DNA of 41,606 nucleotides from Deltaproteobacteria bacterium (GTDB lineage: Bacteria; Desulfobacterota; Syntrophobacteria; Syntrophobacterales; Syntrophobacteraceae), in contig JAJYDE010000035.1 of the NCBI GenBank assembly GCA_021777755.1, positions 1 to 41,606 of the forward strand, given 5' to 3'. Positions 13,501-31,277 of this stretch are shown piece after piece. The position numbers and the translations under genes were made by a program. The notes under the pieces were generated by a model that had not been told where the DNA came from, did not search any database, and saw nothing but the letters and a program-made list of their open reading frames with translations. How positions within the stretch are numbered: position 1 is the first letter of the stretch; every line of letters begins with the position of its first letter.

Positions 13501-14867
13501 GGCAAAAGGGACGTTCGAAAACTCTGGTCGTCGGCCTCGGGGCTTCGGGGTGCGCGGTCTGCGAGTTGCTTTTGAGCCGGGGGGCTCAAGTGGTGGCAAC
13601 CGACCTGCGTTCGCCATCCGAATTTGGCGGCGCGCTTGATCCAATCGAACGTGCCGGGGCGCAACTGCGCCTTGGCGGCCACGACCTGGAAGATTTTCTA
13701 AACGCCGAAAGCATTATCCTCAGCCCCGGCGTTCCTCTGGACATGGAGCCCCTGGCCCGGGCCCGAAGCCGGGGAATAGAGATCCTGGGCGAACTCGAGT
13801 GGGCCTGGCGCCAGGTGAGTCTGCCCACGGTGGCCGTAACCGGGGCCAACGGAAAAACAACCACTACCGCCCTGATCGGCGAAATGTTCAAACAGGCCGG
13901 AAGGCGTGCTTTCGTGGGCGGCAACATCGGTACGCCCCTCAGCCGCTGGATTGTTTCCGGGGAGAAAGCGGACGTGCTGGTGCTGGAAGTGAGCAGTTTC
14001 CAGCTGGATACCGCTTCGAGCTTCCGCCCGGATGTGGCCGTGTTGCTAAACGTTACCGAAGATCACCTGGACCGGTACCCGAGTTTTGAAGCCTATGCGG
14101 ATTCCAAGCTCTCGATTTTCGCCAGGCAAGGCGGGGCGGATTTTGCGATCATAAACGGGGCGGATCCTGTTTGCGTAAGGCGTGCAGGGGAAATTCCCGG
14201 AAAACTCCTCCGGTTTGGCGCAACGAGCCCAGCGGCAAACGCGGCGCTTTCGGGTTCCACGGTGAGACTCAACATCCCGGGCATGGCCGACATGGAGATC
14301 AGCCTTGAAAAAGCCCGACTTCACGGTGCGCACAACCGCGAAAACATCATGGCCGCCTGTCTTGCCGCCGGGTGTGCGGGAATCGGCCCCGAGGCGATGC
14401 AGGCCGCGGTGGACGCCTTCGAAGGCTTTGCCCACCGGTTCCAGCGGGTTGGCAGCTGGAAGGGAATCGATTTCTACGATGACTCGAAGGCCACCAACGT
14501 GGGGGCCGTGGTAAAGGCTCTGGAAGGCCTCGAGGGGCCCGTGCTGCTGCTTCTGGGTGGAAGGGACAAGCTCGGGGCCTACGAACCGCTTCTTGCTCCC
14601 CTGGCCGCCCGGGGCAAAAGGGTTTTCGCCTTCGGGGAGGCCGGACCAAAAATTTACGATTGTCTGCGCGCCTGCGTCCCGGCGGGGCTCTATCCGGATC
14701 TCGCCTCGGCTTTCCGCGATGCGGTGGCCCGGGCGGCGCCCGGAGACGTTGTGCTTCTCTCTCCGGCCTGCGCCTCCTTCGATCAGTATCGGAGCTACGC
14801 GCACCGGGGGGACCATTTCAGGCAACTGGTCGCCGAACTGGGGGATTTTCAATTCAGGCAACAGTGA
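13497..14867 (+). CDS. murD: UDP-N-acetylmuramoylalanine:D-glutamate ligase MurD
   Basis: A 456-residue Mur ligase adding D-glutamate. It opens with a Rossmann-like TLVVGLGASGCAVCELL segment, then the ATP loop VTGANGKTTTTALIGEM, LEVSSFQL, and HRFQRVGSWKGIDFYDDSKATN, the MurD signature. The start is taken as TTG 13497, which overlaps the murF stop and is preceded by GGGGAATGAAGAA; no ATG in this frame gives a sensible N-terminus. It lies directly behind murF, so mraY has been lost or never entered this position. ftsW follows after 9 bases. Confidence 0.95.
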   Translation: MRQKGRSKTLVVGLGASGCAVCELLLSRGAQVVATDLRSPSEFGGALDPIERAGAQLRLGGHDLEDFLNAESIILSPGVPLDMEPLARARSRGIEILGELEWAWRQVSLPTVAVTGANGKTTTTALIGEMFKQAGRRAFVGGNIGTPLSRWIVSGEKADVLVLEVSSFQLDTASSFRPDVAVLLNVTEDHLDRYPSFEAYADSKLSIFARQGGADFAIINGADPVCVRRAGEIPGKLLRFGATSPAANAALSGSTVRLNIPGMADMEISLEKARLHGAHNRENIMAACLAAGCAGIGPEAMQAAVDAFEGFAHRFQRVGSWKGIDFYDDSKATNVGAVVKALEGLEGPVLLLLGGRDKLGAYEPLLAPLAARGKRVFAFGEAGPKIYDCLRACVPAGLYPDLASAFRDAVARAAPGDVVLLSPACASFDQYRSYAHRGDHFRQLVAELGDFQFRQQ

Positions 14868-14876
14868 GGGGTTACA

Positions 14877-16055
14877 TTGTCTAGAACAGCCTCGGATGCG
14901 CCAATGGGCGCGCTGGAAAACCCGAAGGACAGACTTCGCTACTGGAAGCCTCTTCCTTTGCATGTCCAGTTGTGGGTCGAGGTGTCCCTTCTGATCGCCT
15001 TCGGCCTGATCATGGTCTACAGCGCCAGCTCCATCCCGGCGCTCAAGAAGTTTTCGGATTCGAGCTATTACCTCAAACGGGAGCTTTTTTGCATCGCGAT
15101 CGGCTTTTCACTCATGTTCACCTTGAGCCGGGTCCCCTACCGCTCTTTTAAAAAGTACTCCGGCCCGCTCATGCTGACCATGCTTGCCATGTTGACGGTG
15201 GTCCTGATTCCGGGCGTGGGGGTCAAGATAAACCATGCACGGCGCTGGCTGCGAGTCGGCCCGCTGCATATTCAGCCCGCCGAGTATGCGAAGGTGGTCT
15301 GGGTTTTGTTTCTGAGTTCGGCTCTTGTCAGAAAGCAGGAGCGCATCAAGCAGCCCCGGGTCAGCTTCTGGCCCTATCTGATCCTTTGCGGGGTCTTCTG
15401 CGTCCTTTTGCTCAAAGAACCGGACTTTGGCACCGTCTTCATGTTCGTTCTTCTTATGGTCATCATGATGGCCGTTACCGGGGTGCCCTTCCGCTGTTTT
15501 TTCCTCATGGCCCCTTTTGGCGCCTTCGCCTTTTACAGGATGGTCTTCCGGGTGCCTTACCGTCTCAAGCGCTGGGAGGCCTTTCTAAATCCGTGGGTCG
15601 ATCCGCTCTATTCGGGCTACCAGCTGATACAGGGATGGATTGCGGTCGGCTCGGGAGGCCTTTGGGGCAAAGGGCTGGGCGCGGGACAGGAAAAACTTCT
15701 CTATCTGCCCGAGTCCTACACCGATTTCATCCTGGCCGTGATCGGGGAGGAATTGGGCTTTCTGGGCATCCTTTTGACCTGCGTGCTTTTCCTCTTTCTT
15801 TTTCTAACCGGCCTTGGAATCTCAAGGGACGCTCCCGATTATTTCGGAAGCACGCTTGCGATGGGGCTGACCATGCTCATTTCGCTCGAAGCTCTGCTCA
15901 ACATGGGGGTTGTGCTCGGACTTGTGCCCACAAAGGGAACGGCCCTTCCCTTCATCTCCTATGGAGGCAGCGCCTTTGTCGCCAGTTGCATCGCCGCGGG
16001 AATGCTCTTGAGCATTGCCGGAAGCTGTGAAAAACGAGCCGATAATTTTGATTGA
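14877..16055 (+). CDS. ftsW: Peptidoglycan glycosyltransferase FtsW (SEDS family)
   Basis: A 392-residue polytopic membrane protein with about ten hydrophobic helices, polymerising lipid II at the septum with FtsI. Typical stretches include GLIMVYSASS near the first helix, HARRWLRVGPLHIQPAEYAKV, LLKEPDFGT, the extracellular SGYQLIQGWIAVGSGGLWGKGLG loop, and the C-terminal LPFISYGGSA. TTG 14877 was chosen because GAGGGG precedes it at 7 bases; ATG 14904 is the alternative. The stop lies inside the upstream extension of the murC frame, leaving no room for murG, which normally sits between ftsW and murC. Confidence 0.95.
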   Translation: MSRTASDAPMGALENPKDRLRYWKPLPLHVQLWVEVSLLIAFGLIMVYSASSIPALKKFSDSSYYLKRELFCIAIGFSLMFTLSRVPYRSFKKYSGPLMLTMLAMLTVVLIPGVGVKINHARRWLRVGPLHIQPAEYAKVVWVLFLSSALVRKQERIKQPRVSFWPYLILCGVFCVLLLKEPDFGTVFMFVLLMVIMMAVTGVPFRCFFLMAPFGAFAFYRMVFRVPYRLKRWEAFLNPWVDPLYSGYQLIQGWIAVGSGGLWGKGLGAGQEKLLYLPESYTDFILAVIGEELGFLGILLTCVLFLFLFLTGLGISRDAPDYFGSTLAMGLTMLISLEALLNMGVVLGLVPTKGTALPFISYGGSAFVASCIAAGMLLSIAGSCEKRADNFD

Positions 16056-16093
16056 ATCTCCTTGGCAATGAGTACTCGGAAAACGAAGATATT

Positions 16094-17476
16094 ATGTTCA
16101 AACGTTATCAACATATTCATTTTATAGGAATCGGCGGGATCGGGATGAGCGGGATAGCCGAGTTGCTTCTCAATCTCGGATACCAGGTGAGCGGGTCCGA
16201 CCAGAGATTGTCGGAGATAACCGCAAGGCTTGGCGCCCTGGGCGCGGTTGTCTGTTGCGGCCACGATCCGGCAAACCTTGCGGGCGCCGATGTCGTAGTG
16301 ACCTCATCGGCCATCTCGGAAGACAACCCCGAGCTGCAGGCGGCCCGAAGGCTTCCCAAGGTCCCCGTCATACGGCGCGCGGAGATGCTGGCCGAACTGA
16401 TGCGCCTGAAGTATTCGGTCCTGGTGGCCGGGGCCCACGGCAAAACCACCACGACCTCGATGGCCTCCACCGTGCTGGCCCGCGGAGGCCTCGACCCCAC
16501 GGTGGTCATCGGAGGAAAGCTAAACGCCTGGGGCACCAATGCAAAACTTGGAACCGGGGAGTTCATGGTGGCCGAAGCCGATGAGAGCGACGGCACATTC
16601 CTGCTTTTGCCCCCGACGATCGCCGTGGTGACAAACATCGATCTGGAACACCTCGACTTCTACCGCGACATTGAGCACATTCGCGACACCTTCCTGCGCT
16701 TCATCAATAAGGTCCCGTTTTACGGCCAGGCGATACTCTGCCTTGAGGACGAAAACATCCAGGCGATTTTGCCGCGTGTCGAGAAAAGATTTGTGACCTA
16801 CGGATTTTCCTCTCAGGCCGATTTCCAGGCAAGGCAGGTCGAAAACCGCGGTCTTTGCAGCACCTTTCGGGTTTTTCATCAAATGCGCGAACTGGGCGAA
16901 ATGGAGATCCGCATTCCCGGTCGCCACAATGTGCTAAATGCCCTTGCCTGCGTTGCGGTGGCCCATGAACTCGAGATTGCCTGGCCGGCCGTGCAGGCGG
17001 GGCTGCGCGATATGACCGGCGTCCAGCGCAGGTTTCAGATAAAGGGCGAAGCCGGGGGCGTTCTGGTCCTCGACGACTACGGCCATCACCCGACGGAAAT
17101 AAGGGCCGTACTGGAGGCCCTGGCCGGCTGTTATCCCGACCGACGTCGCATAATAGCCTTTCAGCCGCACCGTTACAGCCGCACCAAGGCCCTGCTCGAA
17201 CAGTTCGCCAGGTGTTTTTACGACTGTGACGTTCTGCTGGTTTCCGAAATCTATCCGGCCAGCGAAAAGCCAATCCCGGGCATAACCGGCCTCGGCCTGG
17301 CCGAGCAAATCGCGGCCCACGGGCACCACGAACTCCATTTTTGCCCGACTTTTGAAGAAATGGGCGAAAAGTTGAAGAGCCTGGTAAGGCCGGGAGACGT
17401 CGTTATGACCCTCGGGGCCGGAAGCATCTTCCAGGTTGGCGAAGCGCTCCTGGAAAGCCTCGGGGCGAAGGCTTGA
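16094..17476 (+). CDS. murC: UDP-N-acetylmuramate:L-alanine ligase MurC
   Basis: A 460-residue Mur ligase catalysing the first peptide addition. It opens with HIHFIGIGGIGMSGIAELL, the UDP-MurNAc-binding Rossmann motif, then the ATP loop AGAHGKTTTTSM near 113, the EADESDGTFL motif, and DDYGHHPTEI in the C-terminal domain. ATG 16094 was chosen to give the family-standard N-terminus; GGAAAACGAAG lies upstream. The same frame is open back to a TTG at 16052 that overlaps the ftsW stop, an alternative coupled start adding 14 residues. murB follows after 31 bases. Confidence 0.95.
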   Translation: MFKRYQHIHFIGIGGIGMSGIAELLLNLGYQVSGSDQRLSEITARLGALGAVVCCGHDPANLAGADVVVTSSAISEDNPELQAARRLPKVPVIRRAEMLAELMRLKYSVLVAGAHGKTTTTSMASTVLARGGLDPTVVIGGKLNAWGTNAKLGTGEFMVAEADESDGTFLLLPPTIAVVTNIDLEHLDFYRDIEHIRDTFLRFINKVPFYGQAILCLEDENIQAILPRVEKRFVTYGFSSQADFQARQVENRGLCSTFRVFHQMRELGEMEIRIPGRHNVLNALACVAVAHELEIAWPAVQAGLRDMTGVQRRFQIKGEAGGVLVLDDYGHHPTEIRAVLEALAGCYPDRRRIIAFQPHRYSRTKALLEQFARCFYDCDVLLVSEIYPASEKPIPGITGLGLAEQIAAHGHHELHFCPTFEEMGEKLKSLVRPGDVVMTLGAGSIFQVGEALLESLGAKA

Positions 17477-17507
17477 AAAGCTCGATCGACACGGTGCATG
17501 GAAGAAG

Positions 17508-18446
17508 ATGATGAACTCGAAGCTTCGCGCTCTTGAATCGATTCCGGATGTTGAAATCCGAAGAGACGAGCCGCTTGCCCGGCACACCACCTTCCGGGTC
17601 GGAGGGCCGGTGGGGATGCTTGCCCGCCCGCGAAGCCAAGGAGCGCTTTTTGCTCTTCTGGACTCCGCCAGCCACCTGGGGGTGCCCTTCGCCATACTCG
17701 GTGAGGGCAGTAACGTCCTTGCTCCCGACGAGCCCCTGGAAATGATGGTCATTGAGCTTCACCTGGCCTGCGGTGGCTTGATCCCCGGCAGCCGAACCGA
17801 GCACGGCAAACTTCTCTACGCCGGGGCCGGAGCCAGGCTGCGCGACCTGGTGGGTTTTTGCATAAAAAACGGTCTCCAAGGACTCGAAGCACTTGCCGGG
17901 GTGCCCGCGACCGTGGGCGGAGCACTCTTTATGAACGCCTCGACTTCCTGGGGGGCGATTTCGGATCGCCTGGTACAAATCGATCTGCTGGACAGCCAGG
18001 GGGTAAAGCGCTCTTTTCGCCGGGAGCAACTGAGCCCCGGCTATCGCACCATGGGCCTTCCGGAAGACTGTGTCATTCTTGGCGGGTGCTTTGAACTCGA
18101 TTCTTGCGCGGCGGCCGTGCTCGAAGAGCGGGTGGAAACGATCCTGGAAAAACGCAGAAAGACCCAGCCCCTGCGCTATCCTTCGGCCGGTTCGGTTTTC
18201 AAAAACCCCCCGGGCCTGTTCGCCGGAGCCCTGATTGAAAAAGCGGGGCTCAAAGGCCACCGGATAAATGACGCCCAGATTTCGGAAAAACATGCCAACT
18301 GGATCGTCAATCGCGGTACGGCCACGGCCAAGGATGTTTTGGAACTGATGGACAGAGCGGAAAATGCGGTTTTCGGAACTTTTGGCGTGCGTTTGGAGCG
18401 AGAAATTCGTATACTTACACAAATATGTAGAAACCCGGCCAAATGA
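17508..18446 (+). CDS. murB: UDP-N-acetylenolpyruvoylglucosamine reductase MurB
   Basis: A 312-residue FAD enzyme that reduces UDP-GlcNAc-enolpyruvate to UDP-MurNAc with NADPH. FAD-binding motifs are ARHTTFRVGG near 24 and GEGSNVL; the second half carries GVPATVGGALFMNAS and the catalytic-region PSAGSVFKNP, then INDAQISEKHANWIVN. The compact length fits the shorter (type II) MurB class. ATG 17508 is preceded by GGAAGAAG; the next codon is also ATG. The stop overlaps the ftsQ start (ATGA). Confidence 0.94.
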   Translation: MMNSKLRALESIPDVEIRRDEPLARHTTFRVGGPVGMLARPRSQGALFALLDSASHLGVPFAILGEGSNVLAPDEPLEMMVIELHLACGGLIPGSRTEHGKLLYAGAGARLRDLVGFCIKNGLQGLEALAGVPATVGGALFMNASTSWGAISDRLVQIDLLDSQGVKRSFRREQLSPGYRTMGLPEDCVILGGCFELDSCAAAVLEERVETILEKRRKTQPLRYPSAGSVFKNPPGLFAGALIEKAGLKGHRINDAQISEKHANWIVNRGTATAKDVLELMDRAENAVFGTFGVRLEREIRILTQICRNPAK

Positions 18447-19321
18447 TAAAATCCAAGAAATTGAGAAGAAATAAGTACCAGGAGAGTGTGGGTGACCGCT
18501 TTAAAGGTAAATTAGGCCCTTTTCGCCACTTCTTTTCACTTTTCTTGTGGTTTGGCTTTGTCCTCGTTCTCGGCGCGTGCCTCTCGCGGCTCTACTGCGA
18601 GTTAGTGAGCGGGCGATGGTTCAAGGTGGAGCAAATCGATATCAGCGGGCTTAAAAAACTCGACCGGACCGAGGTCCTGGACGCCATGGGCCTCAGGAGG
18701 GGGCAAAGCGCCCTGGAGATTGATCCTCTGCGAGTAGCGGGCCGGCTGGAAAGGCTTCCTTTGGTCCGAAGCGCCTCGGTAAAGCTGGACTGGAAGGGGC
18801 GCGTCGCGGCAAGCATAGTCGAGCGCAGGCCGGTTGCCGTTTTACAGTGCGGAGGGCGACAAATGCTTATGGACTCCAGGGGTTTGCTTTTCGGCGAGGC
18901 GGGCTCGGCTGAAAAGAACTTGCCGCCCCTCATGACCGGTTTTTGCGATTCGAGCGCCAAAACGGGCGACTCGATTTCCCCCGAGAGTCTGGAGCACATC
19001 AGTGAACTGCTTTCGGCCGTGGATGGTTCCAAATGGCTTTCGAGGTCGGCCATCGACGAATGCCGGTGGACCCGGGACGGGTTCACTCTGACTTTGGGGC
19101 AGAAGGCGGTTCCGGTAAACTTTGGCAAACAGGGTTTTGATGGCAAGCTCGCAAAGCTTCGAAACGTGATCAATACGCTTAATGACCGGGGATGGGCCGA
19201 TCGGGTGACCCGGATCGATCTCGACTATCACGGCAGAGCATATTTGGAGGGAGAGTTCCCTGTTCCCGAACCGGCCCGGGGAACGCAAAACGGCCGGGCT
19301 GATCAGCATCACAGAGGCTGA
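18443..19321 (+). CDS. ftsQ: Cell division protein FtsQ
   Basis: A 292-residue bitopic protein. A basic cytoplasmic tail (1-30) precedes one membrane helix at about 31-52 (FSLFLWFGFVLVLGACL). The periplasmic POTRA domain begins at FKVEQIDISGLKKLDRTEVL and is followed by the FtsQ domain with TRIDLDYHGRAYLE near the C-terminus. It scaffolds FtsL/FtsB into the divisome. ATG overlaps the murB stop. Position immediately before ftsA is standard; no ddl gene is found between murB and ftsQ. Confidence 0.9.
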   Translation: MIKSKKLRRNKYQESVGDRFKGKLGPFRHFFSLFLWFGFVLVLGACLSRLYCELVSGRWFKVEQIDISGLKKLDRTEVLDAMGLRRGQSALEIDPLRVAGRLERLPLVRSASVKLDWKGRVAASIVERRPVAVLQCGGRQMLMDSRGLLFGEAGSAEKNLPPLMTGFCDSSAKTGDSISPESLEHISELLSAVDGSKWLSRSAIDECRWTRDGFTLTLGQKAVPVNFGKQGFDGKLAKLRNVINTLNDRGWADRVTRIDLDYHGRAYLEGEFPVPEPARGTQNGRADQHHRG

Positions 19322-19389
19322 AGCAGGGGGGGGCAAAAAAGCTTCCGATCCTTGCTCCATCCTCACCGCTTTTTTTGAAAGGTATCCCC

Positions 19390-20613
19390 ATGGGGAAAAG
19401 AGAGGAACTGATCGTCGGTTTGGACCTCGGCACCACCAAGGTCTGCGCCGTGGTCGGAGAAGTCACCGGTGAGGGAATAGATATCGTGGGTGTTGGGACC
19501 TATCCTTCGGCGGGGTTGCGGGGAGGAGTGGTCGTAAACATCGATCAGACGGTAAACTCGATCAAAAAAGCGGTCGAAGAAGCCGAGCTTATGGCCGGGT
19601 GCGAAATCTCCTCGGTTTTTGCCGGGGTGGCGGGCACTCACGTCCAAAGTCTTAACAGCCACGGAGTCATCGCCATAAAGAGCCGCGAGGTTACCTCCCC
19701 GGATGTGATGAGGGTCCTCGACGCGGCCAAAACGATCGCCCTTCCCTTCGACAGGCAGATACTCCATGTTTTGCCGCAGCAATATATCGTGGATGACCAG
19801 GACGGCATTCACCATCCGATCGGAATGGCCGGAGTGCGCCTGGAAGCCAGGGTGCACATCATCACGGCCATGACGAGCGCGGTTCAAAATATCGTCAAAT
19901 GCTGCGAAAGGGCCCGTCTTCATGTCCAGGACGTGGTTCTCGAGTCTATTGCCTCAAGCGGAGCCGTGCTCGACGCCGACGAAAAGCAGCTGGGTGTGGC
20001 CCTGATCGATATCGGCGGGGGAACCAGTGAAATAGCGGTCTTTCAAAATAACGGGATCAGGTATTCGACGGTGGTCGGCCTCGGGGGAAATCATATCACT
20101 TCGGACATCTCGGTGGGGCTGCGATGCGCAATGGACGAAGCCGAAAAGATCAAGAAAAAGTACGGCTCCGCCCTGATCGAAGCGGTCGACCAGCAGGAGG
20201 TCATCGAGGTGGGTTCGGTTGGCGGTCAGAAGCCGCGCCAGCTTGCCCAGTCGATTCTTACACAGATTATCGAAGCGCGGGTCAAGGAAACCTTGGACAT
20301 TATCGAGTGGGAACTGGTCAGATCGGGCTTGATCGAATCCCTGCACGCCGGGGTGGTATTGACCGGGGGCGTTTCGCTTCTGCCCGGAATTCGCGAACTG
20401 GCTGAAAAAGTGTTCGACTTGCCGGTGAGAATCGGGGTGCCCTCCAATTTCGGCGGGCTGGGAGATGTGGTGAAAAACCCGATTTACTCCACGGCAACGG
20501 GTCTTTTGCTCTACGGAAAAGAGCACGGCGGCGGGACTGCCATGCGCGATTCAAGGAGCAAGATGGTACCCGTTTGGGAAACCGTAAAACGTTGGTGGAA
20601 GGAATTTTGGTAA
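19390..20613 (+). CDS. ftsA: Cell division protein FtsA
   Basis: A 407-residue actin-family ATPase tethering FtsZ to the membrane. Phosphate loops VGLDLGTTKVCAVVGE near 8 and LIDIGGGTSEIAVF near 205, adenosine motif VVLTGGVSLLPGI near 323. The last residues (VWETVKRWWKEFW) form the amphipathic membrane-targeting helix expected of FtsA, so the C-terminus is complete. ATG 19390 is preceded by GAAAGG at good spacing; a TTG five codons upstream is less likely. A 68-base gap separates it from ftsQ. Confidence 0.96.
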   Translation: MGKREELIVGLDLGTTKVCAVVGEVTGEGIDIVGVGTYPSAGLRGGVVVNIDQTVNSIKKAVEEAELMAGCEISSVFAGVAGTHVQSLNSHGVIAIKSREVTSPDVMRVLDAAKTIALPFDRQILHVLPQQYIVDDQDGIHHPIGMAGVRLEARVHIITAMTSAVQNIVKCCERARLHVQDVVLESIASSGAVLDADEKQLGVALIDIGGGTSEIAVFQNNGIRYSTVVGLGGNHITSDISVGLRCAMDEAEKIKKKYGSALIEAVDQQEVIEVGSVGGQKPRQLAQSILTQIIEARVKETLDIIEWELVRSGLIESLHAGVVLTGGVSLLPGIRELAEKVFDLPVRIGVPSNFGGLGDVVKNPIYSTATGLLLYGKEHGGGTAMRDSRSKMVPVWETVKRWWKEFW

Positions 20614-22047: not shown

Positions 22048-24339
22048 TCAGCGAATCTTGCGCTTTGCCTGCGGGTTCCACGCCACCTCCCGGATGCCCC
22101 CGGCCGGTACGGTCGGGCAACGCCGGTTGCCCCTTCCAAACAGAAAATCGGGTGCCCACCAGTTCCAGTCCCCGAGTAAGCGCATGGTGGCCGGCACAAG
22201 GAGGCATCGCACCACGGTCGCGTCCACCACAACGGCTATGCCCATTCCTATTCCCATCTCTTTTACGGCCGTAATATCGGCGAACCCGAAGGCGAAGAGC
22301 ACCAAGGCCATTATGGCCGCGGCCCCGGTGATGGTGCGGCCGGTTTGCTCCAGCCCCGCGGCCACGGCGCGGGTGTTGTCGCACGACTTGCCGTATTCCT
22401 CGCGCACACTGCTCAGCAGCAGCACCTCATAGTCCATGGAGAGGCCAAACAGGACGCAAAACATGATTATGGGAGTCATTGCCTCTATCGGCCCCGGGGT
22501 GAAATGCAGAAGCCAGGCCAGATGGCCCTCCTGGAAAATCCAGACCAGCGCCCCGTAGGAAGCGCTAAGCGAGAGTACATTGACGAAGACCGCCTTTAGC
22601 GGGAGCAAAACGGATCGAAGCAGCGGCAGGAGCACCAGATAGGTTGCAAGCACCGTGATCCCGATCACCAGAGGCGAGTTTTTGCCGACCGTGGCGATGA
22701 AATCGGCTCGAACAGCGCTCGAGCCGGTTACCATGAGTTGCCCGCCAACCGGAGGATGCGACTCGCGGATCAGCCGGACCAGGGCGAAGGACTTGGAGCT
22801 CGCCTCGGGCAAAGATGTTTGAGCCACAAGCATGACGATGTCCCGCCCGACCATCTTGCGCAGAATTTGCCGCACACCGCCCGGCAGGGGAGCCATGGGC
22901 GGGGCGTACATTTGCACATACAGCTTGCGGGTAATGGACGGATCGAGGTCCACGATGCTTTTGACCTCGTTTACCCCGGGAAGTTTGGCCAGCCAGCGGC
23001 TAAGAGCGTAGATGCGCTCGATGTGGTCCACGCTTAGCGGTGAGTAACTTTTCGGATACCGGATGATTACGATGACGGGGTTGGTATCGATTTTGTCAAA
23101 TTGGCCGTGCAACAACGCCGCGCCCCGACGGGATTCGGCCGTAAGGGGCAGCCCCGCGGCCGCTTCGGCGCCAAGCCGGATATGGATCAGCGGAAGCCCG
23201 AGCAAAATGAGAAAAAGCGAGGCCGCAAGCAGCACCTTCCACGGGTGGGCCATGACCGTGGTGGCCAGGCGGTGCCAGAACCGGGCGCTGCGGCTCGATT
23301 GGGCTCCGGTCGTAAACGGCAGTTTCAAAGAGTCCACCCCGGGGCCCAAAACAGCGAGTAAACCCGGAAGGAAGGTCATCGCGTAAGCCACCGAGAGCAC
23401 GACCACAATGGTTCCCGCCAGCCCCATCGAGCCAACATGACTCAACCCCAGAAACATCATGCTTAAAAGCCCCACCGCGACCGCGGTTCCCGAGAAAAGA
23501 ACGGCGCGTCCTGTGGTGGCCAGCGTATGGGCAAGCGCATCGGCTACCGAGCCGGTTCCGACCTGCCTGCGAAACCGGCTGAGGATGAAGAGCGAGTAGT
23601 CTATTGCCACACCCAGGCCCACCATTACGACGACGTTTCTAGCAAACCCCAAAACGGGGGTGATCTGTGCAAGCAGGAGCATGCAGGCTATGCCGGCGGT
23701 TACCGCGAGAAGTCCCGCGGCAAGCGGCAGCACGGCTCCCACCAAAGAGCCGAACACGAAAACAAGAAGCAGCCCTACAAGGGGCAGGACCCTCATTTCA
23801 GCCTGTTTTGCATCGTTTTCGGTCAAAACGTTTATATCGTAAGTTTCGGGCAATGCTCCGAAAGCCACCACCGCCAGTTTGTCGCAATGAACCATTGCGC
23901 GCAGCGCGGGGTAGATTTTCATCGCCAGGGTGGTCTCATCGGCGCGGTAATCCTTGATTTGCACGTTAACGATGGTACTGTGCCCGTCCTTTGAAATGTG
24001 GTGAGAATCCACCTTGGCCTTGTCGAAAGCTGTGCTCACGGATTTGACGCGCGGGTCGCCGCGAAGAGGTTCCACCGCCTGCTCGACCAGGGCCTTGAAC
24101 TGTGGTTCACCGGCCGTTAGAGTCGGGCTTGTCAAGATTAGCCCGAAGGAAGGCATGGAAGGAGGTAGCTGCTTTTTGATGAGATCCATCGCCCGCATGG
24201 ACTGGCTTTGGACCGGGACGATCTCCGTGATGAGATGCCCCCCCCTTTGCGCCAGCCAGGCCGCGGGAATCAGCGAAAGGGCCGAGAGGATTACCACCCA
24301 CCATCGGAAACGGTAAACCCATCGGCCCCAGGAGGCCAA
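22048..24339 (-). CDS. MMPL/RND-family lipid transporter
   Basis: A 763-residue inner-membrane RND-type pump with about 12 helices: one near the N-terminus, a periplasmic domain (about 35-195), five helices, a second periplasmic domain, and the last five. Typical MMPL stretches are GLGVAIDYSLFILSRFR, the second-half equivalent GLSMDYEVLLLSSVREEY, and the C-terminal LLVPATMRLLGDWNWWAP. Such proteins export lipids or hydrophobic compounds. It starts at TTG 24339 with GGGAAG upstream, 37 bases after mlaC; a TAG blocks an extension. Pairing with an MlaC-like protein recalls the hopanoid-associated HpnM/HpnN pair, but it is shorter than HpnN and no hopanoid gene is nearby. Substrate unknown. Confidence 0.85.
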   Translation of the reverse strand: MASWGRWVYRFRWWVVILSALSLIPAAWLAQRGGHLITEIVPVQSQSMRAMDLIKKQLPPSMPSFGLILTSPTLTAGEPQFKALVEQAVEPLRGDPRVKSVSTAFDKAKVDSHHISKDGHSTIVNVQIKDYRADETTLAMKIYPALRAMVHCDKLAVVAFGALPETYDINVLTENDAKQAEMRVLPLVGLLLVFVFGSLVGAVLPLAAGLLAVTAGIACMLLLAQITPVLGFARNVVVMVGLGVAIDYSLFILSRFRRQVGTGSVADALAHTLATTGRAVLFSGTAVAVGLLSMMFLGLSHVGSMGLAGTIVVVLSVAYAMTFLPGLLAVLGPGVDSLKLPFTTGAQSSRSARFWHRLATTVMAHPWKVLLAASLFLILLGLPLIHIRLGAEAAAGLPLTAESRRGAALLHGQFDKIDTNPVIVIIRYPKSYSPLSVDHIERIYALSRWLAKLPGVNEVKSIVDLDPSITRKLYVQMYAPPMAPLPGGVRQILRKMVGRDIVMLVAQTSLPEASSKSFALVRLIRESHPPVGGQLMVTGSSAVRADFIATVGKNSPLVIGITVLATYLVLLPLLRSVLLPLKAVFVNVLSLSASYGALVWIFQEGHLAWLLHFTPGPIEAMTPIIMFCVLFGLSMDYEVLLLSSVREEYGKSCDNTRAVAAGLEQTGRTITGAAAIMALVLFAFGFADITAVKEMGIGMGIAVVVDATVVRCLLVPATMRLLGDWNWWAPDFLFGRGNRRCPTVPAGGIREVAWNPQAKRKIR

Positions 24340-24376
24340 AAGGGACTTCCCGCCCTTTCGTCGTTTTTGCCTGTGA

Positions 24377-25003
24377 TCAGCTATGGTCGCCTACCTTGGC
24401 GCGCAGCATCCCCAGCAGGGTATCAAAGGAATTGTTGGCCAAAATCGAGGAGATCTGCGCCCGGTAGTTGTCGTCGTAGCTTATCCCCTCGACAACCACG
24501 TCGTAGACTTTCCAGCCGCCCCCCTCCTTTCTCAATCGATATTCGATCGGCACACTTTCACCGCTGGAGATGAAATGAGTCTTCACGGAGGCAAAATTTC
24601 CGTTGATGGTCTGGCCATCATAGACGATCTTCTGGTCATGATAGTTCTCCATCCGGTCGACATAGGTATTGAAAAGCAGCTTCTTGAAAAGCCCGGCAAA
24701 TGTCTGACGCTTCCGGGGGCTCAGTTGTTTCCAGGGATGGCCGAGGGCCATTTTCGCCATTTCATCAAAATCGAAATAGTTGCTGACGATCGCGAGGACC
24801 TCCCCTTCTCTTTGCCGCAAAGAAGGTGCCCGGCCCGTTTCAGACTGGCGCAAAATCGTGAGCACCTTTTCCGTACCGTTTTGGATAAGCGCCATGGGGC
24901 CCGCGGCGGTTGCCAGGCTCCATTGCGGCAGGGTGAGTAAAACCAGCAGGATCATCGATTCCACAATAAGTCTTTTTGCATTCCATCTCGACATCACCGG
25001 CAT
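24377..25003 (-). CDS. MlaC/Ttg2D-family periplasmic phospholipid-binding protein
   Basis: A 208-residue secreted protein. The N-terminus has a signal peptide (LIVESMILLVLLTLPQWSLATA). The body shows the MlaC pattern: IVSNYFDFDEMAKMALGHPWKQLSPRKRQ followed by FKKLLFNTYVDRME and WKVYDVVVEGISYDDNYRAQISSIL, ending shortly after. MlaC shuttles phospholipid across the periplasm between MlaFEDB and MlaA, none of which is in this window. Here it heads a two-gene unit with an MMPL pump, so lipid delivery to or from that pump is inferred. GGAGG lies close to ATG 25003; ATG 24994 three codons later is equally plausible. Confidence 0.87.
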   Translation of the reverse strand: MPVMSRWNAKRLIVESMILLVLLTLPQWSLATAAGPMALIQNGTEKVLTILRQSETGRAPSLRQREGEVLAIVSNYFDFDEMAKMALGHPWKQLSPRKRQTFAGLFKKLLFNTYVDRMENYHDQKIVYDGQTINGNFASVKTHFISSGESVPIEYRLRKEGGGWKVYDVVVEGISYDDNYRAQISSILANNSFDTLLGMLRAKVGDHS

Positions 25004-25226: not shown

Positions 25227-25721
25227 ATGACGGATAACCGCGGAATACTCGACCAGCAAAGATGCCTGGAGATCGTGCGCAGTTGCGCATGCTATAATTT
25301 GCGCAGGGCGGCCCGCGCCACCACCCGGCTCTACGACGATTTCCTCAAACCCAGCGGCCTGAGGACCACTCAGTACTCGGTCCTTATGGCGGCCAAATTG
25401 CTGGGACCACTCACATTGACAAAACTTGCGGAAATGATCGTCGCCGAGCGAACAACCCTCACTCGGAACCTGACCGTTCTCGAAAAGAAGGGATTGGTGC
25501 TGATCGAACCGGGCGAGGACCGCAGAGAACGCCTGGTGAGCCTTACCGAAAAGGGCGAGGAGGCGCTGATAGGGGCCATACCCATGTGGGAAGCGGCCCA
25601 GGGCTGTGTCGAGCAGGGACTTGGCGGCGAGCGTGTAAGCGGCCTTCTGGGGCACCTGTCGGCCATCATTTCGATTTGCCGCGCTCCAAAATGTCCCCTC
25701 CATGATCCCCCCGAAGCATGA
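25227..25721 (+). CDS. MarR-family transcriptional regulator
   Basis: A 164-residue winged-helix regulator. The DNA-binding core reads YSVLMAAKLLGPLTLTKLAEMIVAERTTLTRNLTVLEKKGLVLIE with the wing EDRRERLVSLTEKG (about 50-112), flanked by dimerisation helices. MarR proteins usually repress a neighbouring or divergent operon and release DNA on ligand binding or oxidation. It is divergent from mlaC-MMPL and upstream of the bamB-like operon, so either could be its target. Cys residues near the N-terminus (CLEIVRSCACY) and at the C-terminus (CRAPKCP) are more than usual and could sense redox; this is inference. No ribosome site stands out for ATG 25227 beyond GGAA. Confidence 0.88.
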   Translation: MTDNRGILDQQRCLEIVRSCACYNLRRAARATTRLYDDFLKPSGLRTTQYSVLMAAKLLGPLTLTKLAEMIVAERTTLTRNLTVLEKKGLVLIEPGEDRRERLVSLTEKGEEALIGAIPMWEAAQGCVEQGLGGERVSGLLGHLSAIISICRAPKCPLHDPPEA

Positions 25722-25786: not shown

Positions 25787-25814
25787 TTGACTAAAAAAAG
25801 GGCTGCTATATGAT
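25787..25814 (+). promoter_or_regulatory. Promoter of the bamB-like operon
   Basis: TTGACT at 25787-25792, 16-base spacer, TATGAT at 25809-25814. Both hexamers are near consensus. An inverted repeat GCTA-TATTG-TAGC at 25824-25836 lies just after the predicted start point, and GCTATAT occurs twice (25806 region and 25824 region), which could be a repressor site. Confidence 0.6.
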
Positions 25815-25868
25815 TACGATGCAGCTATATTGTAGCGGTTTTTTGGTTGGCAACGGGAGGCACAGGGC

Positions 25869-27866
25869 ATGAGATACGCCGAGACGGGATACAATCTGGA
25901 AATCGATTTGACCACGGGAAGCATCGAGCGGGTGGAAACCGATCCGAAGCAGACCGAACTTCACCTGGGAGGTCTTGGCACAAGCGTCAAGATTCATTGG
26001 GACAGGGTGGGCCCGGAGGTAAAAGCCTTCGATGCCGAAAACCTGTTGATATTCAGCACCGGTCTTTTGTGCGGCACTCCGGCCGTTAGCGCCAACCGGA
26101 CCCTTGTGAGCTTCATCTCTCCCCAGACCGACATATTGGCCTATCCGATGATGGGAGGATTCTGGTCGTCGGAATTAAAGTATGCGGGCTACGACAAAGT
26201 GATTATTCGGGGAAAGTCCCCGAGGCTCGTCTACCTGTGGATACACAATGACGAGGTGGAGATCCGGGACGCAACGCATCTTCGGGGCCAAGGGGCGATT
26301 GCAACCCAGGAGCTGATACGGGAAGAGTTGAACGAGCCCAAAGCCCAGGTGGCGGCGATCGGGCTGGCGGGTGAGAACCGGGTTTTCGTCGCCTCCATCG
26401 AGCAGGCGCGCTCGAGTTCCTCGCGGGGCGGGGGCGGGGCCGTAATGGGGGACAAGGGGCTCAAAGCCATAGCCGTTCGCGGAACAAAGGACGTTAATCT
26501 TGCCAGGGGGGCCGAGTTCATGCTCCATGTGCAGGATTTGAAAAAATTCATAAAACACCGCAACGAAAATCCGATCCAGGAAGTCATGCCGATTCTTTCG
26601 GGCATCGGTTCTCCGCAGATGATGAAACACATCGACGAGAAGTGGCACACCGAGAGTTTTGCCTGGGGAAACGCGCGTCAACGCAGAAAAGACTTCTGGA
26701 CCGAGGAGGTCGAAAAGAGCTGGACAAAGAGTCAGACGAGCGCGATAAAGCGGTTCATAAGCTGCTTTAACTGCCCGCAACAGTGCGGGGCCTTGATTTG
26801 CCACGAAGGCGTACCGCCCTACATGATGAAATGCTTCTCAAAGCTTACCTATGCGATGGCGGCCTATGTGGACGACCTGGATTTTTCCTGGAAGATCTGC
26901 AAGAAGGCCTTCGAATACGGTCTGGACTCATTTTCGACCCCGCAGATATTGGCTTTCGCGGTTGAACTCCACGAAGCCGGGATATTTACCGATGCGGACT
27001 TCGAGGGGTGTCCAACCGATAAGGAAGGCAGATTCTTCTGGCTCCTGGACCGGGTCGCCCGACGGGAGGGAATAGGAGACTACCTGGCCGACGGCACCTA
27101 CTGGGCGGCCAAAAGGATCGGCAAGGGGGCGGAGGCCTTCGATCACAACACGACCAAAAAGCACGAGCAGATGAACATAAAGCTGGGGATGCTCGACCCG
27201 CTCTATTTTTTGATGTTTGCAACCAACGAGAAGATCAGCATCACCCAGATCGAGGGGAACTGGCCTCAAGCGCCCTTTGTCACCAAGGAGGCGCGGGAGT
27301 CGTTTGTGGCCGACTGGCCGCAGCTGCCCGATGAGAAATTCAAGAAATATTTCCTCGATTGGGAACCGCGCGGCGAATTTTCAAACCCCTATTACCCCAC
27401 GCCCGAAATTTCGAGCGAAATCGTCGACTGGATGGAAATGCTTCACAACATCGACGACGCGCTCGGGCTGTGCGCCGGGATGGGCTCCTTTTGCTTCAAA
27501 CCCCCCTATCATATACACAATTATCCCAAATTCATTTCCTCGGCCACCGGAATGGCTGTCGATGAAGAGGCACTTAAAAAAATAGTCAACAGAAACCGGA
27601 ATTTGCACCGGGCGTTCAACAATCGAAGAGGGATGAGCAGGGCTGATGAGAAACCGCCTCAAGATCACTGGAAACACCGCTTTCCGGAGCTCGAGGAGCA
27701 ACTTCTTACAACCTATTACGCCTTCAAGGGATGGAATTACGACGGAATTCCCACAAGGCCAAGACTCCATGAACTCGATTTGGATTATGTCGCCGACGAT
27801 CTGGAAAAAAGAGGGATTTTAAAAGGTGGCGAAGATAAAAAAGACGATCAAGACAATCAAGGTTGA
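25869..27866 (+). CDS. BamB-like tungsten enzyme, class II benzoyl-CoA reductase active-site subunit family (AOR superfamily)
   Basis: A 665-residue aldehyde:ferredoxin oxidoreductase-superfamily protein, full length, and from its N-terminus (MRYAETGYNLEIDL) onward very like BamB. Family features: LHLGGLG in the N-terminal pterin domain, ASIEQARSSSSRGGGGAVMGDKGLKA, iron-sulfur ligands Cys299, Cys302, Cys306 (CxxCxxxC) with a distant Cys535, and Cys322 in KCFSKLTY. From memory, Cys322 is the tungsten ligand and His260 an active-site residue in Geobacter BamB; both positions match here. Known function: ATP-independent reduction of benzoyl-CoA to a dienoyl-CoA with BamC and BamDEFGHI. GGGAGG precedes ATG 25869. 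bamD-I are not in the window, so a relative acting on another aromatic or alicyclic acyl-CoA is possible. Confidence 0.85.
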   Translation: MRYAETGYNLEIDLTTGSIERVETDPKQTELHLGGLGTSVKIHWDRVGPEVKAFDAENLLIFSTGLLCGTPAVSANRTLVSFISPQTDILAYPMMGGFWSSELKYAGYDKVIIRGKSPRLVYLWIHNDEVEIRDATHLRGQGAIATQELIREELNEPKAQVAAIGLAGENRVFVASIEQARSSSSRGGGGAVMGDKGLKAIAVRGTKDVNLARGAEFMLHVQDLKKFIKHRNENPIQEVMPILSGIGSPQMMKHIDEKWHTESFAWGNARQRRKDFWTEEVEKSWTKSQTSAIKRFISCFNCPQQCGALICHEGVPPYMMKCFSKLTYAMAAYVDDLDFSWKICKKAFEYGLDSFSTPQILAFAVELHEAGIFTDADFEGCPTDKEGRFFWLLDRVARREGIGDYLADGTYWAAKRIGKGAEAFDHNTTKKHEQMNIKLGMLDPLYFLMFATNEKISITQIEGNWPQAPFVTKEARESFVADWPQLPDEKFKKYFLDWEPRGEFSNPYYPTPEISSEIVDWMEMLHNIDDALGLCAGMGSFCFKPPYHIHNYPKFISSATGMAVDEEALKKIVNRNRNLHRAFNNRRGMSRADEKPPQDHWKHRFPELEEQLLTTYYAFKGWNYDGIPTRPRLHELDLDYVADDLEKRGILKGGEDKKDDQDNQG

Positions 27867-28374
27867 CGCCGACAAGTGCAACGGCTGCAGGGCGTGCGAG
27901 GTCGTTTGCTCGGCCTTTCACGCCGAGCCCAAATACAGCAGCGTAAATCCTGCGCGGTCCCGCATCCAGGTGGTCGTCCATCGCCTGCAGGACATCTGGC
28001 TGCCGGTGTTCGCCGGCGAATACACTCCGGCCGAATGCATGGGCAGGGACAAATACGTCATCGACGGCAAGGAATACGACGAGTGCGGTTTCTGTCGAGC
28101 GGCCTGTCCGTCCAGGACCATGTTCAAGGACCCCGACTCCGGTCTGCCGATCAAGTGCGACATGTGCGAAAGCGATCCGCCGCTGAGTGAGCCCAAGTGT
28201 GTCGAGGCGTGTCTCAATAACGTTTTGATCTACCAGGAAAGAGTCGAGGAGGTCGAGGAACAAACCGGGCAGGCCGAACTGCAAACAGGCCTCGAAGCGC
28301 TGGTGGACAAACATGGATTGCAGAAGCTCCTCGACGCCTTTGCCCTTATGGCCGAAAGGAGCAAGGACTTTTAA
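27826..28374 (+). CDS. BamC-like electron-transfer protein with three [4Fe-4S] clusters
   Basis: A 182-residue ferredoxin-type subunit. Cys groups: CNGCRACEVVC near 18-28, CGFCRAACP near 86-94, CDMC near 108-111 and CVEAC near 125-129, giving enough ligands for three [4Fe-4S] clusters. The segments SSVNPARSRIQVVVHRL and GEYTPAECMGRDKYVIDGKEYDEC match BamC closely. It would pass electrons into the tungsten subunit encoded just before it. Translation starts at GTG 27826, 41 bases inside the bamB-like gene, behind GAGGG, so the two are translationally coupled. A glutamate-rich stretch (RVEEVEEQTGQ) precedes the C-terminal helix. Confidence 0.85.
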   Translation: MAKIKKTIKTIKVDADKCNGCRACEVVCSAFHAEPKYSSVNPARSRIQVVVHRLQDIWLPVFAGEYTPAECMGRDKYVIDGKEYDECGFCRAACPSRTMFKDPDSGLPIKCDMCESDPPLSEPKCVEACLNNVLIYQERVEEVEEQTGQAELQTGLEALVDKHGLQKLLDAFALMAERSKDF

Positions 28375-28468
28375 CAAAGGCCTTCGGCGGAGGGCGGCCG
28401 GGGCGCCGCGGGCCGGAACCAATTCAACCCGTCGTGCTTGCAATTTTCAATCATGCGGAGGGTTTCCG

Positions 28469-29590
28469 ATGAGACGGCAAACGGAGAACGTCAAAAAGCT
28501 GAAGAGCATGTACTCTCTTGAAGACGGGCGGCTGAAAGGGCCTCCCGGCTGGGAGAAATTTCCTCTTTTCTGGTTTCTTCTGTTTTTGTCCTACAAATGC
28601 ACGCGACGGTGCAAGTTTTGTTACAGTTTCAACCAGATGAGCGATGACAAACCCTCCGAGATGGATGAAAACACTTTCAGCCGTCTATTGGATTGGATAC
28701 CTGAAGTCTGGCAGGCAAATAATGTGAAAGTCAATTCCATTGGCTTTCTGGGCGGAGAGCCGTTGCTGCGAACCGATCGCATCAAAAAAGTGATGGATTC
28801 GGTCTATAAAAATACTCGGGGTATGCAGGGTTATCTTTACACCAACGCGGATCTGATCGACTCGGTGAACTGGGACGACCTCGAGGACATCCAATGGATA
28901 TCCGTAAATATTACCGATATCGGTTTGGACGAGCTTGCAAGGCGAATGAACATCGTGCGAACAAGGTCCAATGTGATCAATCAAACGGTGGTGGCCACCC
29001 TGGATGATTTCAACCTGGAAAGAATTCTCGATGTTTCCCGCTTCGGTATCGAGAACGGCTACAGGCTGCGCTATTACAGGGATTTGTACAGAGGCAGGGA
29101 TCAGGAATACCATCGGAGGCTCAAGGCTCAATATCACCGGCTCTGCGATTTGCTCGAACAGTTTATCCAAAGAGGCCACGAGGTCCATACCACTTTTCTG
29201 CTCGATACCCTCGTGCCCTCGTGGGGCTACGAATTTTCCCCCTATCCCTGCGGCAGAAGGATTGCCAAGGTAAATCCCGACGGAACCATCGGGGCGTGCA
29301 TAAGAAACCAGAAGTTTACGACCGGGACCATATTCGACCCGAATCCTTTGGAAAAAATCGATTGCGGCACGTTTCATTACGAATTCAAAAGCGAAGAATG
29401 CAAGGCGTGCGCGGTCAAAAACGTCTGCCAGGGCGGCTGTCCGAACGACAGGCTGCTTTTGACCGGCAGCGTTTCGGGCAAATCGCTTATGTGCGATATC
29501 CACAAGGAGATCATCCCCAGGCTGCGGGAGCTGGACCGCTTGCAGGCTGGCGGGGCTGCGAGCCGCGGCGCGCCCCCCGCTCCCCTGTAG
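28469..29590 (+). CDS. Radical SAM protein with SPASM-like C-terminal cluster domain
   Basis: A 373-residue radical SAM enzyme. The SAM-cluster motif CTRRCKFC gives Cys44, Cys48, Cys51; FLGGEPLL near 93 is the GGEP SAM-binding motif. The C-terminal part has further Cys (YPCGRR, GACIRN, CKACAVKNVCQGGCP, LMCDIHK), the layout of a SPASM domain with auxiliary iron-sulfur clusters. Such proteins modify peptides or mature other enzymes. It follows the BamB/BamC-like pair by 94 bases on the same strand with GGAGGG before ATG 28469. No precursor-peptide gene is seen. Radical SAM proteins annotated as cofactor-modifying (Cmo) accompany aor in Pyrococcus, so a maturation role for the tungsten enzyme is a reasonable inference, not proof. 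Confidence 0.85.
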   Translation: MRRQTENVKKLKSMYSLEDGRLKGPPGWEKFPLFWFLLFLSYKCTRRCKFCYSFNQMSDDKPSEMDENTFSRLLDWIPEVWQANNVKVNSIGFLGGEPLLRTDRIKKVMDSVYKNTRGMQGYLYTNADLIDSVNWDDLEDIQWISVNITDIGLDELARRMNIVRTRSNVINQTVVATLDDFNLERILDVSRFGIENGYRLRYYRDLYRGRDQEYHRRLKAQYHRLCDLLEQFIQRGHEVHTTFLLDTLVPSWGYEFSPYPCGRRIAKVNPDGTIGACIRNQKFTTGTIFDPNPLEKIDCGTFHYEFKSEECKACAVKNVCQGGCPNDRLLLTGSVSGKSLMCDIHKEIIPRLRELDRLQAGGAASRGAPPAPL

Positions 29591-30125: not shown

Positions 30126-31277
30126 ATGAACCCACAGTATCAAGACCACTGGGAAGTTTTGCTGCGGTTTTTGCCGGCGGGCTGGGAGGAAAAGGCGCTC
30201 GAGCTGGGGGCCTTGTCGCGCCGGCGAAAAATCGACTCGGCCCGGACCCTTTTGCGGGTTCTGTTGATCCATCTGGCAAACGGGATGTCGCTGCGCACGA
30301 CGGCCGCCTATGCGCACGAGGCCAAGCTTTGCAGCATAAACGACGCGGCGCTGCTTCACCGGCTGAAGGTCTCCGAGGACTGGCTGCACTGGATGTGCGC
30401 GCAGATGTTCGGGGCCATGAACGGGGGGGCGAGCGCCGGGGCGGTTTCGAGCCGATTGCAGCTCCGCGCGGTTGAGGGCGCCTTGATAAGCGAGCCCGGG
30501 GCCACGGGCAGCGACTGGCGGCTCCACTACTGCCTGAGGCTGCGCGGCCTGCGCTGCGACGCCTTCCGCATCACGGGACCCAAAACGGCCGAGAGCTTCC
30601 AGCACTTCGAGATCTCGCCGGACGATCTCCTGCTGGGGGACCGGCGCTTCTGCGGGGGCGGGGGCATCGCCCACGTGCTCCGGGGCGGAGGCCATGTCGT
30701 TGCGGAGCTAAGCGACTCCCGATTGCCCCTTTTCAGCCGGGACGGAAAACCCTTCCGGACGCTCGCGGAGCTTCGAGGGCTGAAGGCGCTGGGGTGCGGG
30801 GACTGGGATGTCTACTTTCAGCCCCCCGGGGGCAAGGAGTTCCAAAAGGGCCGTCTTTGCGCGATCAGAAAAACCGAACAGGCCGCCGAACTGAGCCGAA
30901 AACGGCTGAGGGCGGGTGCCGCGGGGCACCGGCACCCGATTTTGCCCGAGGCCCTCGAGCGGGCCGATTTCGTCTGCGTCTACACCACCGCAAGCCGCCG
31001 CCTGCTGAGGACAAGGGAGGTCCTGGAGCTCTACTGCGAGCGATGGCGAGCCGAACGGAGCCTCAAAAGGCTCGGGCGGACCATCGCGGTCGGCCACCTT
31101 CCCAAGCAAAACGAGGAGAGCTTCGTGGCCTGGCTCTACGGAAAGATGCTGGTCGCCATGCTGATGGAAAGGATGCGGAGGGAGGCCGAGGCCTTCTCGC
31201 CCTGGGGCTGTCCCATCCGGGGGCCTTGCGGCCCTGCCGGCGATTTTGAAACGTTAAGAAAAGTTGAGTTATTGTAG
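30126..31277 (+). CDS. IS4-family DDE transposase
   Basis: A 383-residue transposase. The region EPGATGSDWRLHY (123-135) and LLLGDRRFC (168-176, catalytic Asp172) are typical of IS4-family DDE enzymes, and YCERWRAE near the C-terminus gives the Y(2)R(3)E signature with the third acidic residue. The first catalytic position, normally Asp in the VDG/VDA context just before the EPGATG segment, reads VEG here (Glu117). The Lys seven residues after the catalytic Glu is a Gly. The frame is intact, so the element looks complete but may be weakly active or dead. ATG 30126; the message would start within the left end. The start context lacks a strong ribosome site, common for transposases. Confidence 0.85.
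   Translation: MNPQYQDHWEVLLRFLPAGWEEKALELGALSRRRKIDSARTLLRVLLIHLANGMSLRTTAAYAHEAKLCSINDAALLHRLKVSEDWLHWMCAQMFGAMNGGASAGAVSSRLQLRAVEGALISEPGATGSDWRLHYCLRLRGLRCDAFRITGPKTAESFQHFEISPDDLLLGDRRFCGGGGIAHVLRGGGHVVAELSDSRLPLFSRDGKPFRTLAELRGLKALGCGDWDVYFQPPGGKEFQKGRLCAIRKTEQAAELSRKRLRAGAAGHRHPILPEALERADFVCVYTTASRRLLRTREVLELYCERWRAERSLKRLGRTIAVGHLPKQNEESFVAWLYGKMLVAMLMERMRREAEAFSPWGCPIRGPCGPAGDFETLRKVELL

Follow-up and report, generated by a model that had tools for sequence, protein, structure and literature searches.

Our PDB search met a single solved class II benzoyl-CoA reductase structure, that of the BamBC subunits of Geobacter metallireducens (4z3w). A 2025 review, which like the other sources is cited here from excerpts, describes Cys322 as a tungsten ligand common to BamB and YdhV only, terms Glu251, His255, Glu257 and His260 invariant zinc/proton-relay residues and names Glu251 and His260 as hydrophilic residues near the substrate ring (PMC12096430). 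The closest described relatives are paralogues of this enzyme. G. metallireducens has a second BamB, Gmet_1802 (BamB2), which is 66% identical to BamB, is encoded beside bamC2 near a putative molybdenum-cofactor gene (Gmet_1804), and is induced 23.6-fold by benzoate, beside 36.4-fold for bamB (PMC1924859). The two homologs of Desulfococcus multivorans are 64% (BamB1) and 79% (BamB2) identical to G. metallireducens BamB; benzoate and cinnamate were the only substrates on which BamB2 was detected, BamB1 being detected on every aromatic substrate as well as on cyclohexane carboxylate, and joint action of the two was speculated upon (PMC5109826). Here we describe an operon of a Syntrophobacteraceae bacterium (assembly GCA_021777755.1) in which bamB-like and bamC-like genes are followed by a gene for a radical S-adenosylmethionine (SAM)/SPASM protein, hereafter rSAM. 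It lies on contig JAJYDE010000035.1, whose 41,606 nucleotides constitute the window, that is, the whole stretch of DNA analysed (contig C13 of a 4.2-Mb assembly of 103 contigs, 95.8% complete).

Gene content, phylogeny, conserved residues and clade-specific gene linkage argue that the operon probably encodes the bacterium's own class II benzoyl-CoA reductase core, BamBC, together with an accessory rSAM maturation factor. The BamB-like protein matches G. metallireducens BamB over residues 1-654 and carries the AOR/WOR fold domains PF02730 and PF01314, and the BamC-like protein carries Fer4 domains. These matches, the domain content of the third gene and the open reading frame (ORF) coordinates agree with an earlier interpretation made from the letters alone (the sequence-only reading), which had described three same-strand genes, the first two close to bamB and bamC and overlapping by 41 bases, and the third, a radical SAM/SPASM gene, following 94 bases later.

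The branching pattern of the BamB family separates the window protein from the proven enzyme. In a quick tree, computed with no bootstrap, of 135 distinct BamB rows and 4z3w, it falls in a clade of 80 rows (clade B), a well-supported sister clade set apart by a branch of length 0.27 with a Shimodaira-Hasegawa-like approximate likelihood ratio (SH-aLRT) support of 100. The remaining rows comprise 27 A-core sequences, including 4z3w, which is thus a clade-A protein, 13 other A and 16 divergent ones. Sampling started from 80 loci of named genomes, retained out of 113 stretches that resemble the window BamB, 108 of which encode a relative; the set is thereby enriched in clade B. The records of these loci carry the labels Desulfobacterota, other Deltaproteobacteria, Bacillota, Planctomycetota and Chloroflexota. 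The position of L161_1133, which branches long within clade B, is unsure, and row L088, whose gene is read across two frames, was used in part.

Clade B is probably the type to which Gmet_1802 and D. multivorans BamB1 belong. For Gmet_1802 we infer this grouping from Geobacteraceae members of clade B that have moeA next to bamC (e.g., L033), in combination with the published gene neighborhood, where bamB2 likewise lies near a molybdenum-cofactor gene (PMC1924859). Both proteins are about 65% identical to the proven BamB, and each is a paralogue of BamB in its organism; in contrast to the window operon, the excerpts of the two reports mention no rSAM partner (PMC1924859, PMC5109826).

The rSAM gene proved to be a clade-specific neighbor. 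Within 10 kb of bamB it is found in 29 of the 80 clade-B rows (28/79 if L079_10001 and L188_18229, one gene fetched twice, are counted once) and in none of the 55 others (0/26 A-core, 0/13 other A, 0/16 divergent), the A-core neighbor counts using 26 rows because 4z3w has no locus. The association is strong (Fisher's test, 4e-8) for rows that are not phylogenetically independent; most non-B rows come from the same genomes, with flanks of at most 8.5 kb against at most 10 kb for most B rows, and many contigs end within the flank. Thus, the placement of BamB outside the proven clade and the conserved rSAM neighbor both come out in favor of the sequence-only reading. A MoeA-like gene accompanies 30/80 clade-B rows over the same distance versus 1/55 others, the locus of this one row also containing a clade-B gene, and BamD is within 10 kb in 28/80 clade-B and 20/26 A-core rows. 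Clustering of the flanking proteins recovers BamD, BamE, BamF, BamG/H/I and the MoeA-like protein as recurrent neighbors; MoeA_N and MoCF_biosynth domains were found in 8/8 MoeA-like proteins scanned, and MoeA_C in one (E 1e-8).

Counted by locus, a full rSAM ortholog stands beside or near bamBC in 24 of the 80 BamB loci, either before or after bamBC, and the same gene occurs within full bam clusters (rSAM-bamBCDEFGHI in L044, bamDEFGHI-moeA-bamBC-rSAM in L084). Among the 33 rSAM genes collected (L013 and L015 share one), 31 adjoin bamB, bamC or moeA, within 1.4 kb; the other two are a two-frame copy next to a MoeA-like gene in Desulfosarcina cetonica (L189) and a gene with unrelated neighbors (L185). 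The BamB-BamC-rSAM order is kept in the four close relatives L011, L012, L027 and L051, with gaps between the BamC and rSAM matches of 75, 78, 16 and 15 bases, respectively, and of 98 bases in the window by the same measure. Across 25 loci rSAM divergence is correlated with that of BamB (Mantel r 0.59, 0/5000 shuffles as high), and over 21 loci BamC divergence is correlated with that of BamB (r 0.59) and of rSAM (r 0.72).

At the level of whole genomes, the 50 loci with no full rSAM in their flanks correspond to 49 genomes, of which 11 have an rSAM match at E 1e-10 or better (nine full-length at 62-70% identity, the two-frame copy of D. cetonica and a broken one in Desulfonema magnum) and 38 have none; this search left out L017, L072 and L083, and the G. 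metallireducens genome lies outside it. By hand tally, rSAM is present in 34/69 genomes with a clade-B gene, one of these copies being in two frames, and in 0/4 without. We also searched an even sample of 395 genomes of the window's phylum for BamB (E 1e-150) and rSAM (E 1e-60). BamB was found in 105 and rSAM in three, the window genome included, whose BamB matches have 100, 74 and 73% identity; none of the 290 BamB-less genomes of the sample has rSAM. A functional tie of rSAM to clade-B BamBC is well supported.

The sequence-only reading had suggested that the operon may be self-contained and distinct from the housekeeping benzoyl-CoA reductase, and here the rest of the genome speaks differently. 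BamD, BamE and BamF (69, 73 and 62% identity) are encoded together on contig C44, and BamG, BamH and BamI (50, 61 and 44%) on C8. Contig C3 carries bamA, of the 6-oxocyclohex-1-ene-1-carbonyl-CoA hydrolase family TIGR03200 (549 bits, cut-off 464), and bamQ, of the 6-hydroxycyclohex-1-ene-1-carbonyl-CoA dehydrogenase family TIGR03201 (469 bits, cut-off 339). The window BamB has a BamC partner in its operon and bamDEFGHI elsewhere in its genome. The earlier reading had also raised the question of bamDEFGHI and a second bamB in the same genome; the former is there, while BamB searches of the genome returned one intact BamB, the window's own.

A class I benzoyl-CoA reductase requires two PF06050-type subunits. 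The single PF06050 protein of the window genome argues against such an enzyme, and this candidate was rejected. No clade-A BamB was matched (E 1e-60) in the genomes of L011, L012, L027 and L051, the four nearest relatives, an absence that is soft, as others here, given that many of the genomes compared are metagenome-assembled and may miss genes. With bamDEFGHI, bamA and bamQ present and no class I pair, the organism looks like a benzoyl-CoA degrader with this BamB as its only one.

A second housekeeping BamB was likewise considered and rejected, the only further candidates being AOR-type gene fragments of 26-45% identity on C80. These fragments (L091 2062-7702) belong to a gene lying in more than one frame within a cluster of another kind, where they adjoin a methyltransferase, a radical SAM protein with an HMPTM zinc ribbon and a DVU_1553-family CoA ligase.

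The window protein shares with G. metallireducens BamB a full-length match (653 aa), the BamC partner and bamDEFGHI in its genome, as well as Cys322, Glu257 and His260, which are invariant across clade B (Cys322 and His260 in 80/80 rows). It also has cysteines 299, 302 and 306, which we take to have an Fe-S role. It differs in its separate clade, in the rSAM gene of its operon, in the location of bamDEF and bamGHI on other contigs, and in having Met for Glu251 and Ile for His255, with a His at 254; two of the four residues termed invariant are thus lost. Glu251 is kept in 59/80 clade-B rows and lost in 21 (Met in 12, the window included, Ala in seven, Ser in two) versus 0/27 A-core rows. His255 is found in 0/80 clade-B versus 23/27 A-core rows, position 255 being Thr, Val or Ile in 78/80, and position 254 is His in 78/80 clade-B, 4/27 A-core and 7/13 other A rows. 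Further B-specific residues include Asn527 (80/80; Tyr in 27/27 A-core), Cys542 (79/80; Pro in 26/27 A-core) and His580 (79/80; not fixed in the A-core).

These replacements, together with the separate position of clade B in the tree, bear on an alternative scenario put forward in the sequence-only reading, in which clade-B BamBC would be a related acyl-CoA oxidoreductase instead of the enzyme that dearomatises, with, for example, another aromatic or a cyclohexene/diene-carboxyl-CoA as substrate. In its favor, 33/69 clade-B genomes also hold an A-group BamB (hand tally, two of them on long branches), and BamB1 of D. multivorans, probably a clade-B protein, is the one made on all aromatics and on cyclohexane carboxylate (PMC5109826). 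Yet no clade-A match was obtained in the genome of the window or in those of its four closest relatives, although the first of these holds bamDEFGHI, bamA and bamQ; several clade-B loci (e.g., L030, L044, L045, L084) carry full bamDEFGHI, and bamB2 of G. metallireducens is benzoate-induced beside bamB (PMC1924859). We hold this scenario to be unlikely. Among clade-B genomes the presence of a clade-A gene does not differ significantly between those with rSAM (13/34) and those without (20/35; Fisher's test on hand-tallied counts, 0.15).

The rSAM protein itself matches the radical SAM domain PF04055 (31.7 bits, cut-off 29.5) and the SPASM model TIGR04085 (34 bits, cut-off 27). Its CX3CX2C motif (C44, C48, C51) and seven SPASM cysteines (C261, C277, C311, C314, C320, C324, C342) are invariant in 33/33 orthologs. 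An AlphaFold model (mean pLDDT 75, pTM 0.80) has CteB, the anaerobic sulfatase maturase (anSME), ChlB and PqqE as nearest folds by Foldseek, at TM scores (by query) of 0.54-0.66; these share the radical SAM domain and seven-Cys SPASM, but identity in the structural alignments is 15-17%, and no precursor peptide was found adjacent to rSAM. We rejected membership in a named NCBIfam family: in the scan of the window rSAM, which gave the best 25 of 55 families, no SPASM maturase family (PapB, anSME, PqqE or others) exceeded its curated cut-off among the matches listed. Radical SAM genes adjoining AOR/WOR-family genes have precedents in cmo of Pyrococcus furiosus and in NCBIfam TIGR04317. TIGR04317 is absent from the 20 NCBIfam families matched by any of the 33 rSAM members at E 1e-10. 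In the open-access literature searched, we found, among the matches listed, no description of an rSAM tied to BamBC or tungsten oxidoreductases. The nearest mention, as far as the excerpts go, is in a 2026 classification that assigns the G. metallireducens reductase to WOR clade 62 and class IV enzymes to clades 62 and 63, and sets aside WorS-like genes annotated SAM-like as most likely pterin-biosynthesis genes (PMC13328260).

The proposal of the sequence-only reading, that rSAM is the "own maturase" of BamBC, is plausible in view of the protein's family, of moeA lying next to it at some loci and of the lack of a gene for a peptide substrate. A role on a small metabolite or pathway intermediate seems quite improbable to us: small molecules are the substrates of some SPASM/twitch enzymes, the fold matches include MoaA and BtrN, and no BamB residue clearly tracks rSAM, but 31/33 rSAM genes adjoin bamB, bamC or moeA, and the best sequence and fold matches are peptide or protein maturases. 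That rSAM matures a ribosomally synthesized and post-translationally modified peptide, or is a chance passenger, is very improbable: the closest NCBIfam model among the matches listed is the PapB ranthipeptide maturase, but at 70.6 bits, far under its cut-off of 340, any unmasked small ORF is common to at most 3/33 rSAM neighborhoods (3 kb each side, bam genes and moeA masked, the large families seen before masking having resembled shadow ORFs of bamB/bamC), and the clade-B linkage recurs in both gene orders and across records from several phyla.

What follows is a proposal for the reaction, for the route of the electrons and for the role and target of rSAM. Clade-B BamB would bind W-bis-metallopterin through Cys322 and reduce an aromatic acyl-CoA, most likely benzoyl-CoA, with BamC relaying electrons from a BamDEFGHI complex whose genes lie at other places in the genome. 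The rSAM protein would most likely be a maturation factor, alongside a MoeA-type metal insertase in many relatives, altering BamBC or its tungsten cofactor by radical chemistry. More tentatively, rSAM may install a modification on the BamB/BamC polypeptide or the tungsten cofactor of the clade-B reductases that it accompanies; in the window lineage and others like it, this modification would serve an active site devoid of Glu251/His255.

Several observations count against the overall interpretation of the operon as a benzoyl-CoA reductase core with a maturation factor. As many as 35/69 clade-B genomes have no intact rSAM (hand tally), among them all seven Geobacteraceae-like genomes of the 49 searched above, and neither have 12/15 genomes of the phylum sample with a BamB of at least 72% identity (hand count). 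In Desulfonema magnum only a broken rSAM with in-frame stops persists, directly upstream of bamB. Because so many clade-B genomes do without the gene and one retains a broken copy, rSAM is not needed for every clade-B enzyme. Neither is a target indicated, since no residue clearly tracks rSAM presence, either in BamB (25 rSAM-adjacent versus 42 rSAM-less rows, largest frequency difference 0.47) or in BamC (22 versus 41 rows, largest difference 0.50). With regard to the reaction, Met251 and Ile255 replace residues with an assigned catalytic role, which leaves room for another substrate. The authors of the D. multivorans study took BamB2 as the active subunit, from its tree position (PMC5109826), and the excerpts of PMC1924859 and PMC5109826 contain no activity report for a clade-B-like protein.

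Clade B occurs in many anaerobes with aromatic-degradation genes, is the sole BamB found in some, differs from the structurally known clade-A enzyme at residues with an assigned catalytic role and is often accompanied by a moeA-like gene and rSAM. Organisms holding only the clade-B type make the role of the second BamB testable; cultured rSAM carriers with no BamB found other than clade B include Desulfocucumis palustris NAW-5 (L013/L015) and Pelotomaculum terephthalicicum JT (L045/L079), and Desulfoprunum benzoelyticum (L020) has a clade-A BamB as well. Should rSAM indeed mature the enzyme, heterologous production of some clade-B enzymes would require it, and the assembly of tungsten enzymes would gain a further step; an rSAM-installed modification would represent an unrecognized maturation step in anaerobic aromatic ring reduction, unlike the clade-A enzyme.

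Positions of the operon genes, putative regulatory elements and related copies in other loci (positions in the window unless a locus is named)
Feature	Position	Strand	Basis
bamB-like gene (clade B), W-bis-metallopterin catalytic subunit, 665 aa	25869..27866	+	4z3w_A 1007 bits (PDB search), alignment, tree
bamC-like gene, ferredoxin-type electron-transfer subunit, 182 aa, GTG start	27826..28374	+	4z3w_E 233 bits; Fer4 domains
radical SAM/SPASM gene (rSAM), 373 aa	28469..29590	+	PF04055, TIGR04085, cysteine motifs, fold match
bamB/bamC overlap	27826-27866		
MarR-family regulator gene, possibly local regulator	25227..25721	+	PF01047 35 bits
sigma-70-like promoter match TTGACT-16-TATGAT	25787..25814	+	consensus match only
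palindrome AGCTATATTGTAGC(G), candidate operator	25823..25837	unassigned	recurrence upstream of bamB in window lineage
broken rSAM copy, Desulfonema magnum	L023 about 9209-9995; also L102, L105		
Geobacter argillaceus BamB paralogues	L176 from 8507, from 10465; L122, L124, L126, L128		

The likely ATG of rSAM lies 94 bases past bamC, the mechanical ORF list placing the start at 28313. As to the single promoter assumed in the sequence-only reading, a match does exist upstream of bamB, but the region holds 7 of this kind against a mean of 3.2 in shuffles, no more than about a twofold excess. Directly 3' of it lies the palindrome AGCTATATTGTAGC, whose one match in the whole window compares with 0.12 expected. 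Within 400 bases upstream of bamB it recurs in 5/5 loci of the window lineage (the window, L011, L012, L027, L051) and was not found in L018, L084 and L014, the other three of the eight loci examined. A gene 78% identical to the MarR gene sits about 2 kb upstream of bamB in L051, and the palindrome and the MarR gene are a candidate operator and its possible local regulator.

Additional BamB copies were seen in two genomes. Geobacter argillaceus (genome G013) has four BamB paralogues on one contig, of the A-core, clade-B and divergent types, two divergent ones being adjacent; we know of no substrate for the divergent paralogues. Reports of class II reductases usually concern strict anaerobes. 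The betaproteobacterium Ramlibacter lithotrophicus has two BamBC pairs and a bamDEFGHI cluster (L078 6366-8815, minus strand, and 10001-20355, plus strand).

Upstream of the window operon, on the opposite strand, lie an MlaC/HpnM-like gene and an MMPL-family exporter gene (22048-25003), a pair also present in three close relatives (L011 5679-8573, L012 5495-8474, L051 272-3454). Downstream of rSAM the window carries an IS4-like transposase gene (30126-31277, plus strand; 83.5 bits, below the NCBIfam cut-off of 115).

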